Shown here: piece after piece, positions 29,370-37,310 of the stretch | Numbering within the stretch: the stretch's first letter is position 1 | Layout: each line of letters starts with the position of its first letter | Assembly (NCBI RefSeq): GCF_040712075.1 | Contig: NZ_JBFCVL010000002.1 | Coordinates: 124,001-188,000, forward strand | DNA length: 64,000 nt | Source: Fodinicurvata sp. EGI_FJ10296 | Lineage (GTDB): Bacteria; Pseudomonadota; Alphaproteobacteria; DSM-16000; Inquilinaceae | Direction: 5' to 3' | Made by a program: the position numbers and the translations under genes | The notes under the pieces: generated by a model | Databases searched by the model: none | What the model saw: the letters and a program-made list of their open reading frames with translations, nothing else | Told to the model about the DNA's origin: nothing

Positions 29370-30509
29370 ATGGCGACGGTCACACTGACGAATGTCCGAA
29401 AATCTTTCGGAGAACTGGAAATCATCCAGGGTGTGAACCTGGACATCAAGGATGATGAATTCGTCGTTTTCGTCGGCCCATCGGGCTGTGGTAAATCGAC
29501 TCTTCTACGGCTGATTGCCGGTCTCGAGGATATTACCTCGGGCGACTTGATGATCGACGACAAGGTCGTCAACGATTTGCCGCCAAGCGAACGCGGCATC
29601 GCGATGGTGTTTCAGTCTTATGCGCTGTATCCGCATATGACCGTCGAAGAGAACATCTCGTTCGGCCTGCGCCTTGCAAAGGAGAGCCGCGAGAGCGTCG
29701 AAAAAAAGGTAGCCGACGCTGCCCGCGTTCTGCAGCTCGAGCACCTGTTGAAGCGCAAACCCCGGGAGCTTTCGGGTGGTCAGCGGCAGCGGGTCGCCAT
29801 CGGCCGGGCGATCGTACGTGATCCGAAGGTCTTCCTGTTCGACGAACCACTCTCGAACCTCGACGCGTCATTGCGCGTTCAAATGCGGATCGAGATCGCG
29901 CGCCTGCACCAGGAACTGCACGCGACCATGATCTATGTGACCCATGATCAGGTCGAGGCCATGACCCTGGCGGACAAGATCGTCGTTCTGAACAGCGGTC
30001 GGGTTGAACAGTTCGGCTCGCCTATGGAACTTTACCATCACCCGGCCAACCTTTTCGTTGCCGGGTTCATCGGTTCGCCGAAAATGAACTTCATTGAAAC
30101 GTCAGTGTCCGACGTAACGGGTGCCCAGGCGACCGTTCGTTTGCCGGGAGGAAGCTCGATTTCGGTACCGGTTAAAACCGGCCAACTCCGTGTCGATGAC
30201 AAGGTCACCTTTGGCTATCGACCGGAACATATGTCTGAAGAGGGCCCGGCCGACGCTTATATCAGTGGCCAGGTTTTCGTCGTTGAGCGACTTGGGGGCG
30301 AATCCTATTTCTATCTCAAGACCGATGAAGACAATATAATCGTCGTCAAGGCGGCCGGCGACAGCCGGGTGAAAGTCGGCGATACGATCAATGTGGGCCT
30401 GCACAAGACTTTGTGCCACCTGTTCGACGAGAACGGCGATGCCGTGGAGAAGACCACGCGCAACGCGATGGCCGATACGACACGACGGGAAGTTCCGGAA
30501 TCCGTCTAA
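29370..30509 (+). CDS. thuK: Sugar ABC transporter ATP-binding protein (MalK/UgpC type)
   Basis: A 379-residue ATPase energising the importer. Walker A is GPSGCGKSTLLR at about residues 37-48, the signature is LSGGQRQRVAIGRA, Walker B is FLFDEPLSNLDASLR, and the switch His is in YVTHDQVEAMTLAD. The C-terminal third forms the regulatory TOBE domains found in MalK-like proteins, including FGYRPEHMSEEGP. ATG at 29370 lies ten bases after GGAGG. The longer in-frame reading begins inside the preceding small ORF and lacks support. It is the last gene of the operon. Confidence 0.94.
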   Translation: MATVTLTNVRKSFGELEIIQGVNLDIKDDEFVVFVGPSGCGKSTLLRLIAGLEDITSGDLMIDDKVVNDLPPSERGIAMVFQSYALYPHMTVEENISFGLRLAKESRESVEKKVADAARVLQLEHLLKRKPRELSGGQRQRVAIGRAIVRDPKVFLFDEPLSNLDASLRVQMRIEIARLHQELHATMIYVTHDQVEAMTLADKIVVLNSGRVEQFGSPMELYHHPANLFVAGFIGSPKMNFIETSVSDVTGAQATVRLPGGSSISVPVKTGQLRVDDKVTFGYRPEHMSEEGPADAYISGQVFVVERLGGESYFYLKTDEDNIIVVKAAGDSRVKVGDTINVGLHKTLCHLFDENGDAVEKTTRNAMADTTRREVPESV

Positions 30510-30622
30510 CCCGTCATCCCCGGATTTCGAGACAGCCCCCGGAACGATCCCTTACGGGATTCACAAATTGTCGGTGCAGCGCGAACTGTACTTGTCTAGC
30601 CGAAATCCGCTTCCTATCCCTT

Positions 30623-30730
30623 CCCCGGAAACGCGAAGTGTTGTCTGGGGTCCACACGCACCGCGAGAGCGGTGATGGTGTGGGCCCCGGCTCGGCGCCG
30701 CGTCACTTCGTGCCGCAGCGCGTCCGGGGC
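30623..30730. repeat. Structured modular intergenic repeat, copy 1
   Basis: The unit forms three successive hairpins. Hairpin 1, 30623-30650: CCCCGGA with TCTGGGG, enclosing AACGC-GAA-GTGTT. Hairpin 2, about 30648-30687: outer arms GGTCCACAC with GTGTGGGCC and inner CACCGC-GAGA-GCGGTG. Hairpin 3: GCCCCGG with CCGGGGC, enclosing a smaller GCGTCAC-TTC-GTGCCGC stem. The next copy starts about 145 bases later with the same order of elements. It lies between convergent genes. Confidence 0.75.
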
Positions 30731-30767
30731 AGGGGTTTCTTGTTGCGATGTCAGTTCTTTATTCCCT

Positions 30768-30880
30768 CCCCGGAAACGCCAAGCGTTGTCCGGGGTCAAC
30801 ACGCGCCGCGAGAGCGTTGACAGTATGGGCCCCGGCCTTGCTGCGCACCATTTCATGGTGCGTCGCGTCCCGGGCGGGGG
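30768..30880. repeat. Structured modular intergenic repeat, copy 2
   Basis: Same three-part layout as copy 1. Hairpin 1, 30768-30795, has AACGC-CAA-GCGTT inside CCCCGGA/TCCGGGG. In the middle part GTCAAC pairs with GTTGAC. The third hairpin has a perfect seven-base stem CGCACCA-TTTCA-TGGTGCG at 30844-30862. A degraded further copy seems to begin near 30912. The base changes from copy 1 largely keep the pairing. Confidence 0.75.
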
Positions 30881-30962
30881 AATGCTTTGGGCGCTGTCCC
30901 CTTGTCCATTCGCCAGGAAACGAGAAAGCGCCCGGGACGATCAGTGGGGCGAGGCGACCCTT

Positions 30963-31751
30963 CTATTTTTTGAGCGGTCCGACCAGTCCCACAACGCTGC
31001 CCTCGGGATCGAGAACATGAATTATCCACGAGCCGCCGGGAACCTCATGCGGTCCGGCAATGACCGTCCCACCGCCGCTCTTGGCGCGTTCTGCGGCTGC
31101 CTCGATACCATCAACGATGAAATAATATTGCCAGAACGCTGCCGGCACTGCCTCAGGCCGTTTCATCATGCCGCCAAGGGATTGTCCCCCGGCGTCGTCG
31201 GATGCGGCAAATAGCTGATAAGGGCCCATTTCACCCATGTCGACAGCGTCGGCCTTCGTCCAGCCGAACAGGTTCGAATAATAGTCGAATGCCTGATTCA
31301 GATCATCGGCGCACAGTTCGTTCCAACCGGGGTATCCGGGCAGCATTGCGTCCGGCGCACCCTGATCGGTTTCACTGACCGGTTTGAGCAGGCTGAATAC
31401 GGCACCGTGGGGATCGGCGACAACGGCAAAGCGGCCGACCGATGGAATATCCCGGGGTTTGACGTGAACCTGTCCACCCGTTCCGGCGATGCGATCGGCA
31501 CAGGCATCCACGTCATCGACCGCGATATAGCCGATCCAGCCCGGCCTTGCGCCATGGTCACGGGCCTCCGTTGTCAAGGGCATCATGCCGGCAATCTCGG
31601 TATCTCCGGCGGTAAATAGTGTATAGTCGCCATCGGGCATGCTGGCATCTTTGGCTTTCCAGCCGATGAGATCGCAATAAAATTTCTCGGCCGCAGCCAT
31701 ATTGTTCGTCATGAGTTCGCGCCAGACGAATCGACCGTGCATGGATGACAT
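30963..31751 (-). CDS. VOC-family protein with two glyoxalase-like domains
   Basis: A 262-residue protein made of two vicinal-oxygen-chelate domains (about residues 5-120 and 135-258). The first begins GRFVWRELMTNNMAAAEKFY with IGWKAKD, and the second has NELCADDLNQAFDYYSNLFG. This layout matches the glyoxalase/bleomycin-resistance/extradiol dioxygenase superfamily proteins often annotated only as VOC proteins. There is no sign of a specific substrate. GGAGG lies eight bases before the ATG at 31751. It appears as a single gene transcribed towards the repeat region. Confidence 0.88.
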   Translation of the reverse strand: MSSMHGRFVWRELMTNNMAAAEKFYCDLIGWKAKDASMPDGDYTLFTAGDTEIAGMMPLTTEARDHGARPGWIGYIAVDDVDACADRIAGTGGQVHVKPRDIPSVGRFAVVADPHGAVFSLLKPVSETDQGAPDAMLPGYPGWNELCADDLNQAFDYYSNLFGWTKADAVDMGEMGPYQLFAASDDAGGQSLGGMMKRPEAVPAAFWQYYFIVDGIEAAAERAKSGGGTVIAGPHEVPGGSWIIHVLDPEGSVVGLVGPLKK

Positions 31752-31874
31752 ATCGCTTTCCTCCCAGAACATTTGCCGCAATCGGCGACCGGAACCGGCC
31801 CATTCATTCCGGTGATGGTATAATAAAGTTGATATCAACTTGCCTCATGAGCGTCAATTGGGGCCTTCGGGGCA

Positions 31875-34800
31875 TTACCGGAAGTTCCGCGGCTTGGCCA
31901 AGCTGCGGCCAATATCCCGCTGGCGCCGGCTTTCTTCCCGAACCTCGTCGACTTCCCGGTGTTCCCTTCGCCCGGGTTCTTCTCGCCCGTCATCCCCTCG
32001 CCGGTCGTTGTCCCGAGCGGTTCGACGATCTGCCTGCGGGTGCTTGACTTCGTCCGCGCGCGCCAACGCCCCCGACCAGATTGCCCCGGACCAGATCGGA
32101 TGACGGTCGATGTCGTCTTCGGTCAGGATACCGAGCAGGGATGACAGATCGGTCAGCCGTTCGGCCCGGACATGAATGACCTCGCCGCTTGCGCCGCCCA
32201 CGCCGACCGGCCGCTCGACCCGGCCGTCGACGGCAAGCAGACGTGCGCCCAAAATGACGGCACGGAAATGTTCGAACACCGGCGGCAATACCACGAGATT
32301 GGCAACGCCGGTTTCATCTTCGATCGTGATGAACAACACGCCTCTGGCGCTTCCGGGCCGTTGCCGGACCAGCACCAGCCCTGCACCACGAAACGGCTGC
32401 CCGTGCCGACACGATATCAGATCGCTTGATTGCCGGTATCCGCGCGCGGACAGCACGGGCCGCAACAATCCCACCGGATGATCCTTCAGGCTCAGTGACA
32501 TGGCCGCATAATCGTCGACAACATGTTGGCCCCGCGACATGACCGGCAGCAGGGCCGGGGTCGAAGGATCCGGGGCATCGTCGGCAATACCGTCGAAAAG
32601 CGGCAGGGGTTTATCCTTCAGCCCCTTTACCGCCCAATAGGCTGATCGGCGGTCCATTCCCATCGATCGGAAGGCGTCGGCGTGCGCCAGTATCTCCAAC
32701 CCACCGGCCTGAAGATCGGCGCGGCGCCACAAATCCGCCGGATCCACGAACGCACCGCCCCGGGCCCGGGCGGCGGTCAGCCGATCGGCCGGAGACCGTC
32801 CGAAACCGCCGATCTGACGCAGCCCGAGACGCAGCGCCCATCCCGGCGGCTCCTCCTCTGATCCGCCGGCCGTTCGCTCCGGGACCCGCTCCAGGCTGCA
32901 ATCCCAGTCCGACGCGTTGACGTCCGGGGCCCGCACCTCAACCCCATGCTCGCGGGCATCGCGAACGATCTGGGCGGGCGCATAGAACCCCATGGGCTGG
33001 CTGTTGAGCAAGGCGGCGGCGAAGACATCGGGATAGAAGCATTTGATCCAGGCGGAAACATAGACCAACAACGCAAAGCTGGCCGCGTGGCTTTCGGGAA
33101 ATCCATAGGTGCCGAAGCCTTCGATCTGATTGAAGCACCGCTCGGCGAACGCGGCGTCGTAGCCTCGGGCGGCCATGCCGTCGATCATCATCTCGCGGAA
33201 CTTATGGATATCACCGTTCTTGCGGAACGTCGCCATGGCGCGCCGCAACCGATCCGCCTCGGACGGCGTGAACCCCGCCCCGACGATGGCGATCTTCATG
33301 GCCTGTTCCTGAAACAGGGGAATGCCCAGCGTTTTCTCCAGGACCGGTCTCAGCGCCCCTTCGGGATAGTCGATCCGTTCCTCGCCCGCCCGGCGGCGCA
33401 GATAGGGATGAACCATGTCACCCTGGATGGGACCGGGCCGGACGATGGCGACCTCGATCACCAGGTCGTAGAAGCAGCGCGGCTTCAAGCGCGGCAGCAT
33501 CGCCATCTGCGCCCGGCTTTCGACCTGAAAGACACCCAGACTGTCGGCATGGCACAGCATGTCGTAGACCGCCGGTTCCTCCGCCGGCACCGACGCCAGG
33601 GTGATATCGCGGCCATAATGGTCGCGGATCAGGTCGAAAGCCCGGCGGATGCAGGACAGCATGCCCAGCGCCAGGATATCGACCTTCATCAGGCCCAGAG
33701 CATCGAGATCGTCCTTGTCCCACTGGATGACGGTGCGGTCCGCCATGGCGGCGTTTTCGATCGGCACCAGTTCCGACAGCGGTCCCCGGCTGATCACAAG
33801 TCCGCCGACATGCTGCGAGAGATGGCGCGGGAAGCCGATGAGGGTGCGGACGATATCCACCGTCATGGCGACCGTCGGATCGCCAGGATCCAGACCCGCC
33901 CGCTTGACCGCCTCCTCGTCCAGGCCGTCGTCGCTCCACCCCCATATGGTTTCCGCCAGACGGCCGACAGCGTCGAGCGACAATCCCATGGCCTTGCCAA
34001 CGTCGCGGACGGCGCCACGCGGACGGTAATGGATGACGGTCGCCGTCATGCCCGCGCGGTCGCGGCCGTATTTTTCGTAGACATACTGGATGACTTCTTC
34101 CCGGCGCTCATGCTCGAAATCGATATCGATATCGGGCGGCTCGTTGCGCTCGGCCGAGACGAAACGCTCGAACAGAAGATCGGCCCGCGCCGGATCGACG
34201 GCGGTGATGCCAAGCACATAGCAGACGGCCGAATTGGCGGCCGATCCACGCCCCTGGCACAGGATGCCCCGCTCTCTTGCATACCGGACAATGTCATATA
34301 CCGTAAGGAAATAGGGCGCATAGTTAAGAGACTGGATGAGCTCCAGTTCATAGCACAGACGCTCGGCAACGCCGTCGGGCACAGTACCGTCGTAGCGGCG
34401 ATCGGCCCCTTCCCAGGTGGTCCGCACCAGGGTCTGCTGGGCAGTCTCGCCCGGCGTCATGATCTCCTCGGGATATTCATAGCGCAGTTCGTCGAGCGAG
34501 AACCGGCAGGCGGCGGCGATCTCCGCCGTGCGGGCGATGGCATCGGGGTATCGCCGAAACAGCCGGGACATCTCCGCCGGCGCCTTCAGATGACGTTCGG
34601 CATTGGCCGCAAGACGCCAGCCTGCATTGCCGATGGTGCAGCCATGCCGGATGCAGGTCAGAACGTCCTGAACGATACGGCGGCCGGGATGGTGATAGAG
34701 AATGTCGTTGGTGGCGACCATCGGAACGCCCAGCCGCCGGGAGAGCGTGTTCAACCTGAACAGCCGCGCGGCATCGTCGCCGCCGTAACGGTGGCTCGCC

Positions 34801-35264
34801 GCCAAAAACAACGGCGGCCCGAAGCGATCCCGGCAATCCGCCAGCACCGTCTCGAACGCGGCGAGATCGGCCGTCCGGTCGGGTGGGACGGCGATCAGGA
34901 TCTGCCCCTGCCGCGCGGCGTCGATATCCGCCATCGTCAGGCGGCACGTGCCCTTTTCGGCCCGTCGGCGACCGGTGGTAATCAGTTGGGACAATTGGCC
35001 ATAGGCGGCCCGGTCGGTCGGCAGGCAGACAAGCGGCGGCCCGTCGACCGGATCCAGCCGGGCGCCGACAATCAGGCGGACGCCATGGTCCCGGGCGGCG
35101 ACATGGGCGCGCACGACCCCGGCCAGCGACGCCCGGTCGGTGATCGCCACCGCCTGCAGCCCCAATGCAGCGGCGGCAAGCACCAGTTCTTCCGGATGGG
35201 ACCCGCCCTCCAGAAACGAGAAATTGCTGGTCACCTGAAGTTCGGCGTAAACCGGCGCGCTCAT
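31875..35264 (-). CDS. dnaE2: Error-prone DNA polymerase DnaE2 (ImuC)
   Basis: A 1129-residue C-family polymerase alpha subunit for translesion synthesis. The N-terminal PHP domain begins YAELQVTSNFSFLEGGSHPE. The polymerase core has the catalytic aspartates in EPPDIDIDFEHERREEV. Finger and thumb regions follow, with FPESHAASFALLVYVSAWIK, then a helix-hairpin-helix part and an OB-fold near RGVLFITIEDETGVANLVV. The last 60 or so residues form a highly charged Arg/Glu/Asp tail (for example DRRGDDGREEPGRREHREVD) beyond the usual end, making it longer than typical DnaE2. Its ATG overlaps the imuB stop (ATGA at 35261-35264). The LexA box upstream of imuB should control it. Confidence 0.95.
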   Translation of the reverse strand: MSAPVYAELQVTSNFSFLEGGSHPEELVLAAAALGLQAVAITDRASLAGVVRAHVAARDHGVRLIVGARLDPVDGPPLVCLPTDRAAYGQLSQLITTGRRRAEKGTCRLTMADIDAARQGQILIAVPPDRTADLAAFETVLADCRDRFGPPLFLAASHRYGGDDAARLFRLNTLSRRLGVPMVATNDILYHHPGRRIVQDVLTCIRHGCTIGNAGWRLAANAERHLKAPAEMSRLFRRYPDAIARTAEIAAACRFSLDELRYEYPEEIMTPGETAQQTLVRTTWEGADRRYDGTVPDGVAERLCYELELIQSLNYAPYFLTVYDIVRYARERGILCQGRGSAANSAVCYVLGITAVDPARADLLFERFVSAERNEPPDIDIDFEHERREEVIQYVYEKYGRDRAGMTATVIHYRPRGAVRDVGKAMGLSLDAVGRLAETIWGWSDDGLDEEAVKRAGLDPGDPTVAMTVDIVRTLIGFPRHLSQHVGGLVISRGPLSELVPIENAAMADRTVIQWDKDDLDALGLMKVDILALGMLSCIRRAFDLIRDHYGRDITLASVPAEEPAVYDMLCHADSLGVFQVESRAQMAMLPRLKPRCFYDLVIEVAIVRPGPIQGDMVHPYLRRRAGEERIDYPEGALRPVLEKTLGIPLFQEQAMKIAIVGAGFTPSEADRLRRAMATFRKNGDIHKFREMMIDGMAARGYDAAFAERCFNQIEGFGTYGFPESHAASFALLVYVSAWIKCFYPDVFAAALLNSQPMGFYAPAQIVRDAREHGVEVRAPDVNASDWDCSLERVPERTAGGSEEEPPGWALRLGLRQIGGFGRSPADRLTAARARGGAFVDPADLWRRADLQAGGLEILAHADAFRSMGMDRRSAYWAVKGLKDKPLPLFDGIADDAPDPSTPALLPVMSRGQHVVDDYAAMSLSLKDHPVGLLRPVLSARGYRQSSDLISCRHGQPFRGAGLVLVRQRPGSARGVLFITIEDETGVANLVVLPPVFEHFRAVILGARLLAVDGRVERPVGVGGASGEVIHVRAERLTDLSSLLGILTEDDIDRHPIWSGAIWSGALARADEVKHPQADRRTARDNDRRGDDGREEPGRREHREVDEVREESRRQRDIGRSLAKPRNFR

Positions 35265-36886
35265 GCGAACATTCCGTGCAGAAACCAGGCCGGTGCGGGG
35301 GCATCCGGCGCATAGAGCCCTTGGCGGAACAGCCAGTAGCGGCGGCCCTCCTGATCCTCGACGCGGTAATAGTCGCGGACCGGCTCCGGCTTATCCCGAA
35401 CCGCGTCAGGGTCGGGGTCGGAGTCGGGGTCGGGGTCGGGATTGCTGCATCGCCACCATTCGGGCTCGATCCGCTCCGGCCCGTCGGCATGCCGAACCCG
35501 ATGGACATCGCCGCGCCACCGGAACATGACCGGCGGATCGTCGGGGATCGGGGCAATCGCCTCCACCGGTTCCGGCATCGCCAGCAGCCGAACGGGGCGC
35601 ATCCGGTCCGGCGGCCAGGACGCCGTGCCGGATACGCCGTCACCGGGCCGAAGCACCGGCGGCGCCCGGACGGCGCTGCGTTCGGGGACATGGCTTTCCC
35701 GCATCGCCGGGCACCACACGGCGGCCGAGCCGAGCCGGTTGATCAGCCTGTCCACCAGCACATCCAGCGCCTCGCCCCCGGTTCGTTGCGCCGATCCCTC
35801 GTGCAGATCGCGCTGAACGGGCTGCAGGGCGTCAACCTGCCCGGCCGACAGCACCATGGCCTCGATACCGAAACCGACATCCAGCCCGTCGATGGAATCG
35901 GCGAACAGCCGGGCCAGATGGCGCGGATCGCGGCTGGCGCGCGCAGTTCCGATGGTGCGGCGTTCGACACCGCCGTCGATCCGGTAAAAGGCGATCTCCA
36001 GACGCCGCGCGCCCTGCCCGTCGCGCTCCAGCCCCGCGCACAAGCCGTCGAGCAGGCGCTCCAGTGCCGCCTGAACATCCTCGGTACGGCCGATCGGCTC
36101 GGCAAACGCCATACGCACCAGACGCGGCGGCACCGGCCGGCGCGGGCTGATGGGATCGTCATGACGGCCGAGCGCGCGGTCCAGCCGGTCGAGCAGCCCC
36201 TGCCCGAAACGCCGGACCAGAGCCGCGCGCGGCATGACATAAAGATCGCCGATCCGGCGCAGCCCCAGGCGATGAAGACCTTCAAGCGTCCGAGACTCCA
36301 GCCCCAACCCCGCGAGATCGACCGGCCCCAGTGCGGCGGCGGTTTCGCCGGGCGGCACGATCGCCTCGGCCACCGGACGGGCCGGATCGGACCAGGCATT
36401 CGCGCCATGAGTCGCAAGCGCCCAGGCCGCGCCGGGCGTATCGGCCATGGTCAGGCGGGCATCATGACCGATATCGGCCAGCCGGTGCAGAACGTCGCGG
36501 CCAAGCGCAACCTCGCCCCCGAACAGATGGGTACAGCCGGTGACGTCGATCACCAGTCCTTCCGGCGGCCGGGCGGCGACCCAGGGGCTGTACCGCCCGC
36601 ACCAATCGGCGAGCCGGTCCAGCGCCCGGGCGTCATCGACCGGATCCGCCGGCCGCGCCGCCAGTTCGGGAATGCGGGCGCGCGCATCGGCCACACTCTC
36701 CCCCGGCGCGATGCCGCAAAGGGCCGCCGCCGGATCGACCCGATAGAGCCGCGCCACACCCCGCTCCATGACGTAAAGAACGCGCGGCGGCGCCTGCCCC
36801 GCCGTTCCCGAGGCTCCGGAGTCGCCGTACGCACGCTCGACCGCAAAATACGGCATGAAAATCGCCAGATATCGCCGAACCGGCAT
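35261..36886 (-). CDS. imuB: ImuB, inactive Y-family polymerase homologue (SOS mutasome)
   Basis: A 541-residue member of the DinB/UmuC superfamily that links DnaE2 to the beta clamp in damage-induced mutagenesis. The N-terminus RRYLAIFMPYFAVERA lacks the DMD metal ligands of active Y-family polymerases, and the DVTGCTHLFGGE segment replaces the catalytic SxDE motif, as is normal for ImuB. A possible clamp-binding element lies around LQPVQRDLHE but is degenerate. The C-terminal part has a run of Asp-Pro repeats coded by a hexanucleotide repeat. The start is taken as ATG 36886; GTG 36898 is possible. A LexA box lies about 40-55 bases upstream. No imuA gene is adjacent. Confidence 0.92.
   Translation of the reverse strand: MPVRRYLAIFMPYFAVERAYGDSGASGTAGQAPPRVLYVMERGVARLYRVDPAAALCGIAPGESVADARARIPELAARPADPVDDARALDRLADWCGRYSPWVAARPPEGLVIDVTGCTHLFGGEVALGRDVLHRLADIGHDARLTMADTPGAAWALATHGANAWSDPARPVAEAIVPPGETAAALGPVDLAGLGLESRTLEGLHRLGLRRIGDLYVMPRAALVRRFGQGLLDRLDRALGRHDDPISPRRPVPPRLVRMAFAEPIGRTEDVQAALERLLDGLCAGLERDGQGARRLEIAFYRIDGGVERRTIGTARASRDPRHLARLFADSIDGLDVGFGIEAMVLSAGQVDALQPVQRDLHEGSAQRTGGEALDVLVDRLINRLGSAAVWCPAMRESHVPERSAVRAPPVLRPGDGVSGTASWPPDRMRPVRLLAMPEPVEAIAPIPDDPPVMFRWRGDVHRVRHADGPERIEPEWWRCSNPDPDPDSDPDPDAVRDKPEPVRDYYRVEDQEGRRYWLFRQGLYAPDAPAPAWFLHGMFA
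35409..35440. repeat. Hexanucleotide tandem repeat inside imuB
   Basis: Five copies of GGGTCG, one with a G-to-A change, run in tandem and in frame. They code for the alternating Asp-Pro stretch of ImuB (DPDPDSDPDPD). Such repeats can gain or lose units by slippage without changing the frame. Confidence 0.85.
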
Positions 36887-36926: not shown

Positions 36927-36941
36927 GTTCTTGTTATGTTC
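36927..36941. promoter_or_regulatory. LexA (SOS) box upstream of imuB-dnaE2
   Basis: GTTC-TTGTTAT-GTTC is a perfect match to the alphaproteobacterial LexA recognition pattern GTTC-N7-GTTC. It lies 40-55 bases before the imuB ATG, where it can cover the promoter. Repression by LexA and induction by DNA damage are thus expected for imuB and dnaE2. Confidence 0.85.
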
Positions 36942-36973
36942 TAGTTTCGGCGGCGTGCTGAGTCAATCGGGAA

Positions 36974-37310
36974 CGGAGCCCGGGCCGTGTTTCGGCCGCG
37001 TGAAGTTGCTGCACGCGATCCCGGGTCAGCAACGCGTCACTTTCGTGCCGCGCTGCGCCCGGGAATTGGAGAAGGTGGAAATCACCCGGCCACCCCCTCC
37101 TTCCTCCGCCCCGGAAGCGCGAAGCGCTGTCCGGGGTCCACACGCGCTGGACGAGCCCGGTCCGCGTTTCCCCCCGGGAAGTTACTGCACCAGATCCCGG
37201 GTCTGCAGCGCGTCACTTCGTGGCCGCGCTGCGCCCGGGAATTGGAGTGGGTGGGACCCCGACCCGCATGAGCCCGGCTCGCGCTTCGACCCGGGAATGG
37301 GCGCGGGTGG
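36974..37310. repeat. Intergenic repeat cluster related to the 30.6 kb repeats
   Basis: Two copies of a roughly 104-base unit lie at 36974-37078 and 37152-37254, with a partial third copy at 37270-37310. Shared blocks include GCGTCACTT(T)CGTG(G)CCGC and GCGCCCGGGAATTGGAG. Between the first two, at 37109-37136, stands a hairpin-1 module (AGCGC-GAA-GCGCT within CCCCGGA/TCCGGGG) of the type seen at 30623 and 30768. The cluster fills the gap between the gapN-like gene and the imuB promoter, and no coding sequence is seen in it. Confidence 0.75.

Follow-up and report, generated by a model that had tools for sequence, protein, structure and literature searches.

A lineage-specific, BIME-like composite of REP-type hairpins found mainly at gene 3' ends in Fodinicurvata sp. 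EGI_FJ10296

In the Alphaproteobacteria, the typical REPs are the CGTC REPs, which have stems of 8–9 bp, CCA tails, and head-to-head dimers, and are without a transposase (Di Nocera et al. 2013, PMC3733652, available portion). The same portion of that paper gives unidirectional and convergent gaps as the favoured location of REPs in general and has RAYTs as dispensable for some REP families. Other repeats of these bacteria, named in the available excerpts of PMC2573895, PMC2245857, and PMC2267715, are the RIME, Sm, and ABC repeats of Sinorhizobium and the Bru-RS of Brucella, the latter being about 103–118 bp in length. The CIR repeats of Caulobacter are, in the available part of PMC2229807, long intergenic sequences made of two inverted repeats and a linker, and carry GANTC.

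The stretch of DNA analysed here, referred to as the window, is 64,000 nucleotides long (C2:124001–188000) and comes from the 4.83-Mb genome of Fodinicurvata sp. EGI_FJ10296, assembled in 32 contigs. Within it, a 453-bp gap between two convergent called genes, a MalK-type ABC ATPase gene on the forward strand (29370–30509; ABC_tran, OB_MalK, TOBE_2) and a glyoxalase-family gene on the reverse strand (30963–31772; PF00903, 3.3e-26), houses two copies of a composite element, both on the forward strand. Copy 1 (30610–30743, C2:154610–154743) matches positions 1–134 of the covariance model R1 with 140.7 bits and copy 2 (30755–30888, C2:154755–154888) matches R1 with 119.1 bits; the copies are 79% identical over 121 bp (30615–30735 against 30760–30880) at a spacing of 145 bp. 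In copy 1, HP1 (30623–30650) has the arms CCCCGGA/TCTGGGG, the inner stem AACGC/GTGTT, and the loop GAA, HP2 (30652–30683) has the outer stem CCACAC/GTGTGG and provides helices 3 and 4 of the covariation test, and HP3 (30684–30730), with the arms GCCCCGG/CCGGGGC, is a long REP-type hairpin that has alphaproteobacterial relatives. A weak outer stem, helix 1 of the covariation test, would enclose all three hairpins (30611–30735, pairing 30611–30615 with 30731–30735). The hairpins of copy 2 are HP1 at 30768–30795, HP2 at 30797–30828, and HP3 at 30829–30875, the last with a single C–C mismatch in its arms. The common order of stems in the two adjacent copies, which was the starting point of the original prediction, is confirmed, and the hairpin 1 that it placed at 30623, 30768, and 37109 is found at all three by a degenerate pattern made from these copies, which matches only these 3 places in the window and has a shuffled expectation of 0.00.

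When set beside the CGTC REPs as presented in the available portion of PMC3733652, the composite has in common with them that it consists of intergenic palindromes, with head-to-head dimers, short CCA-type tails, a similar location, and no dedicated transposase. By eye, TCCA follows HP1 and CCCA follows the reverse-read HP3 in most rows. It differs from them, however, in having no CGTC tag, in the length of its consensus stems (12 pairs in HP1 and 18 pairs in HP3, as against 8–9 bp), in the HP1 loop of 3 nt (GAA in 27 of 30) as against a loop of 4–5, and in its extra third hairpin, which is a linker, and outer stem. No unpaired CGTC, TGTC, or CCTC tag is present, HP1 being preceded by sequences of the CTCAT, CTCCT, or CCCTT types by eye. 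A scan for tags in a 1.34-Mb sample of the genome located CGTCATCCCG at 10 places, none of which is intergenic, TGTCATCCCG at 3 places, 1 of them intergenic, and CCTCATCCCCG at 3 places, 2 of them intergenic.

With the enterobacterial BIME/REP (GTAG), again as presented in the available portion of PMC3733652, the element shares hairpin composites that are mosaic, in tandem, and between genes, but its units are longer, its sequence is different, and its genome has no RAYT match. In the broad sense of REP/BIME, that of many dispersed, mosaic, mostly intergenic hairpin units, it does belong. The likeness to RIME, Sm, ABC, and Bru-RS, drawn by description alone from the excerpts cited above, is that all are intergenic palindromic or mosaic alphaproteobacterial repeats. 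The CIRs, in the part of PMC2229807 cited, are similar in being a long intergenic hairpin pair joined by a linker; they carry GANTC, whereas here it is depleted, with 5 GANTC in 30 cores against a shuffled mean of 13.1, and the CcrM/CIR idea was rejected on this ground. There is no Rfam match in the whole window at gathering threshold, and none in 30500–31000 at E ≤ 1. A described family with this exact layout had been thought to be lacking, and indeed none was found in Rfam or in open-licence papers. The element is a lineage-specific BIME-like composite of REP-type hairpins, and it looks like a new family of the known REP/BIME kind, as which it is classed here in preference to placing it in any named family.

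Comparison of copy 1 with its own genome by BLAST gives 58 matches, copy 1 included, and R1 gives at least 117 matches at E ≤ 0.01, a count that rests on 150 of 3116 candidates scored, from which weak matches may be missing, and that includes HP3-only matches and some opposite-strand overlaps. Of these, 30 are full-length and strong, with at least 89.9 bits over all 134 positions. R1 was built from 25 copies recruited by similarity to copy 1, 5 broken or partial loci (L009, L023, L026, L027, L029) of the 30 aligned having been excluded. There are tandem arrays, such as the four copies at C6:331660–332485, and the flanks are made of modules in varying combinations, with 3' modules common to copies whose 5' modules differ. 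This mosaicism blurs the element ends, and no target-site duplication was identified at the copies. R1 matches are present at or adjoining the start of C3, the end of C4, the end of C8, the start of C12, and the end of C13, so that the copy number may be underestimated by the assembly. The original prediction of a REP/BIME-like unit, against which few or no further copies would have told, is supported by both sets of matches as a dispersed hairpin repeat.

For one of these copies, there is evidence of the direction of change. A homologue of yggS (PLPBP) is present in 14 relatives, with ykuD convergent beside it in 11 and 3 loci without ykuD. Nine of these 11 relatives, spread over four genera, have yggS and ykuD stop codons that overlap by 4–29 bp, while in the source genome they are separated by a gap of 219 bp that holds a full copy. 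The overlapping stops in the relatives argue that the copy was inserted between the two genes, and an insertion in the lineage of the source genome is the simplest reading; the empty site gives the direction, which is insertion between overlapping convergent stops. In the other two relatives, the gaps are 65 bp and 184 bp, neither of which has the repeat by eye. The 184-bp gap apparently contains another palindromic repeat by eye, as if the site had been hit twice. At four other loci, which are the pair in the window, C2:413 kb, and those of the MreB-like and Ku genes, no relative has the same convergent pair. The replicating element that had been proposed is therefore supported by insertion at yggS–ykuD, the sole testable site.

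With regard to how the element might be mobilized, the Y1/RAYT transposase domain PF01797 has 0 matches in the genome at E ≤ 0.001, in a search where the control was positive in 5 of 14 genomes, and RAYT mobilization was rejected for this lack of a match. Pfam assigns varied functions to the 18 proteins flanking nine strong-copy gaps and the 2 at the gap of the 37109 copy; no transposase is among these 20, of which 3 matched nothing. A plasmid or phage origin was rejected, as copy L020 has no blastn match in 72,556 plasmid records or in phages, and a viral origin likewise, as an HP1 pattern has no match in viral contigs.

The location of the element was assessed in two contigs (1.34 Mb; 1209 genes, 88% coding), with genes called by a home-made hexamer caller instead of a standard tool, a retrained version of which was used for the 30 strongest copies. 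In this sample, R1 gave 56 rows, which became 46 matches after 10 opposite-strand duplicates were dropped; 3 of these are centred in a called CDS and 43 are in 34 gaps, with a few overlapping a CDS at the edge. Seventeen of the 34 gaps are convergent, 16 are tandem, and 1 is divergent, as compared to 161 convergent, 661 tandem, and 175 divergent among all 997 gaps. Resampling by residual gap length would lead to an expectation of 3.1 convergent and 10.7 divergent gaps, and 0 of 5000 draws reached the observed 17 and 1. Genome-wide, the 30 strongest copies occupy 24 gaps, being 15 convergent, 6 tandem, 1 divergent, and 2 at contig ends; 15 of 22 classifiable gaps are thus convergent (binomial P 7e-8 against 161 of 997). 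Where the gap is tandem, the median distance of the repeat to the upstream stop is 52.5 bp, as compared to 196.5 bp to the following start, and 13 of 16 repeats are nearer the upstream stop (Wilcoxon P 0.0017). The seat between convergent genes noticed for the pair in the window is thus part of a wider bias, as seen with a covariance-model search of the genome, a check of the sort that had been suggested.

The three hairpins are also conserved in structure. Over the 25 copies, 91.6% of cells in the hairpins and the weak outer stem are paired, against 35–50% with the partner slid. Two-sided change is seen in 73 cells, as compared to 27.5 in shuffles, although these compensatory cells are not independent events, the copies being related, and the covariation score is 0.218 against 0.136, a value that none of 500 shuffles reached. 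Of the five measures, two fail to exceed the shuffles, these being the pairs with two-sided change (13 of 45 against 10.7, a number reached in 64 of 500 shuffles) and the further pair types (33 against 35.4, reached in 478 of 500). In the outer stem, 87.9% of cells are paired, and the changes are mainly one-sided, from C–G to U–G. A second test used 30 HP1 sites from the whole of C1 and C2 and from 21 other genome loci, the latter fetched by similarity; sites were picked by their exact outer arms alone, with no preselection for inner pairing. Of the inner stems, 25 of 30 are fully paired, in 6 versions, where 5000 shuffles average 4.3 and never exceed 12, and 142 of 150 inner pairs are Watson-Crick, with none of the 8 mismatches being G–T. 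Both tests support the predicted conservation of structure through paired, compensatory change, and the independent change at paired positions that would have contradicted it did not occur.

At columns 39, 52, and 53 of A1, the base that lies unpaired behind the inner stem of HP1 tracks the first base of that stem in 29 of 30 sites, A going with G and G with A. This is not a pair, and two sub-lineages are the sole explanation that can be offered.

The minimum free energy fold of copy 1 is a single nested structure. This nested whole-element fold was rejected, as it has 7 two-sided cells where shuffles have 4.7, with 7 or more reached in 70 of 500, and so has no support from covariation, which favours three separate hairpins. 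Outside the outer stem, the mismatches among these related copies are 22 G–T and 20 A–C, near-equal numbers that would be expected if neither RNA strand were privileged, and there is no sign of one RNA strand being the selected one for the three hairpins. In the outer stem there are 25 G–T (G–U) and 4 A–C mismatches, in copies that are not independent. That asymmetry, together with the covarying, multi-branched consensus, could be taken to indicate a structured non-coding RNA or a riboswitch-like motif in which three hairpins are closed by the outer stem. Such an RNA is highly improbable, given that the copies lie behind genes and not before them, that their neighbours are varied, that Rfam has no match, and that tandem arrays and an insertion are seen, the outer-stem asymmetry itself being drawn from related copies.

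The composite is repeated, mosaic, and structure-conserved, lies mainly at gene 3' ends, and was inserted at one site. The reading that we consider probable, by a modest measure, is that of a non-autonomous REP/BIME-like composite, spread by insertion and purged from genes and promoters, with a possible secondary role as a boundary. In its architecture, the long REP-type hairpins HP1 and HP3 would face each other across the palindromic linker HP2, within the weak outer stem. It would spread as a non-autonomous element, the single strand of which has to fold for a putative enzyme to copy or insert it, and a fold that is needed for copying or insertion would make the arms change together. The mobilizing enzyme is left as putative because of the absence of a RAYT match in the genome and of a transposase among the 20 proteins. 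Insertions in genes or promoters would be lost, which would leave the survivors behind stop codons and, above all, between convergent genes, where the repeat may secondarily be a boundary, rich in hairpins, to the transcripts that arrive from either side.

It is also possible, though rather unlikely, that the element is a selected boundary at gene 3' ends, kept for its role and not merely tolerated, in which hairpins in the RNA of both convergent transcripts stop, protect, or insulate. The convergent bias, which exceeds what the number of gaps and their residual length would give, and the closeness of the repeats to upstream stops are consistent with this. So are the 8 nt that follow HP3, in which 20 of 30 copies have 5 or more T, with 0 on the other side, and the sense orientation of strongest copies in 5 of 6 tandem gaps (P 0.11). 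At convergent ends, furthermore, terminator matches occur in 0 of 34 with the repeat and in 14 of 156 without it (P 0.078). Against this, the repeat has no intrinsic-terminator match of its own, terminators are equally frequent at tandem ends with the repeat (1 of 15) and without it (24 of 475; P 0.55), and the orientation of all R1 matches outside CDSs in tandem gaps is 11 sense to 8 antisense. The same location is explained by purging from genes and promoters.

The T-rich stretch on one side only of HP3, and the sense orientation of the strong copies in tandem gaps, might instead indicate a family of one-direction intrinsic terminators, in which HP3 and the outer stem are followed by a T tract that ends transcription. 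This is very unlikely. By eye, HP3 and the T tract are some 7–8 nt apart if the weak outer stem is not formed; simple scans (loop 3–8) for the GC hairpin with an immediate T run that marks an intrinsic terminator find no such site in 30400–31050; the repeat itself never added a terminator match within 180 nt of the sampled gene ends; and the orientation is unbiased over all R1 matches. The intrinsic terminator reading was rejected on the basis of these scans, and the suggestion of termination made in the original prediction is unsupported as far as intrinsic termination is concerned, any role of the repeat in termination being putative.

By the same simple scan, 39 of 680 gene ends in the genome sample have an intrinsic terminator. 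It is in the frame of this small number that a more speculative proposal can be put, and one we regard as unlikely: that in this lineage the insertion of a REP composite, originally a hairpin parasite, created spacers where convergent genes had overlapped, and that the composite would now be kept as a standard two-way transcript boundary by selection on folds in both RNA strands, preventing antisense read-through. The several dozen natural copies provide material for the old question of whether repeats of the REP type are parasites that are tolerated or devices of the 3' end.

The source genome is the sole member of its genus in the comparison set. Of 17 genomes of the family, none but the source genome has a match above 56 bits; at 1e-6, there are matches in 5 of 6 genomes of one genus and in 0 of 10 others, and the loci inspected in that genus are pairs of hairpins, the ends being CGTCAT...ATGACG. 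A search of 289 genomes of the class, with strict filters and 11 candidates scored in each, gave a best match outside the source genome of 63.9 bits, compared to 155.7 within it, and matches at 1e-12 are present in 8 of the 289, source genome included. An exact pattern scan for HP1 plus its tail in genomes of 84,980 species, a set that the source genome is perhaps outside, found none.

Close relatives of HP3 are, however, present across the Alphaproteobacteria, which is the point missing from the earlier reading of this DNA. A pattern for the HP3 core, made from the source genome's own copy L002 and Inquilinus-type relatives with four open positions, matched 45 stretches in other Alphaproteobacteria, the carriers being Bradyrhizobium, Bosea, Rhodopseudomonas, Breoghania, a Xanthobacteraceae MAG, a Rhizobiales bacterium, and Inquilinus limosus MP06. 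Next to the core, all six arm pairs are Watson-Crick in 28 of the 45, in three arm versions (GTG/CAC, GCA/TGC, and GGA/TCC), and the other 17 have one or two misfits. One version of HP3 recurs in Bradyrhizobium, Bosea, and Inquilinus. By eye, several of the 45 stretches are head-to-head hairpin pairs. The long-hairpin repeats of Inquilinus, Bradyrhizobium, Bosea, Rhodopseudomonas, and Breoghania, for which we know of no family name, have the HP3 core of L002 in common with the composite bar the four open positions, and the same arms are found in Rhodopseudomonas AAP120 and in Breoghania, but most have other arms, and there are differences by eye in the partner hairpin, the linker, and the outer flanks. 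A composite repeat of a single genome is in this way tied to a hairpin core shared by several genera of the Alphaproteobacteria. The carriers of the 45 stretches also include a record named Mycobacterium sp. KBS0706, with the core at two loci, where the species name is probably wrong.

In the case of the third site in the window, originally described as a related copy, the relationship holds for HP1 and its tail and not for what follows. This mosaic relative (37096–37255, forward strand; R1 match C2:161096–161255, 59.2 bits) has HP1 at 37109–37136 and the TCCACACG tail in common with copies 1 and 2, but beyond the tail there is a hairpin of a different family, with CCCGGG arms, and its gap is tandem, not convergent. 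A weaker relative in the same gap (36938–37078, forward strand; R1 match C2:160938–161078, 29.9 bits) also has a CCCGGG-arm hairpin, and 36996–37078 and 37172–37254 form a direct repeat of 84% identity. These two stretches represent another hairpin family, which has arms of CCCGGG and a tail of the GGGAATTGGAGAAGGTGG type and is in part fused with HP1 of the first. Beside the 37109 copy, 31875–36886 contains an ImuB-like gene with IMS domains, the end of which overlaps with the beginning of a long gene resembling, by eye, the error-prone polymerase DnaE2, the two forming a mutasome-type pair.
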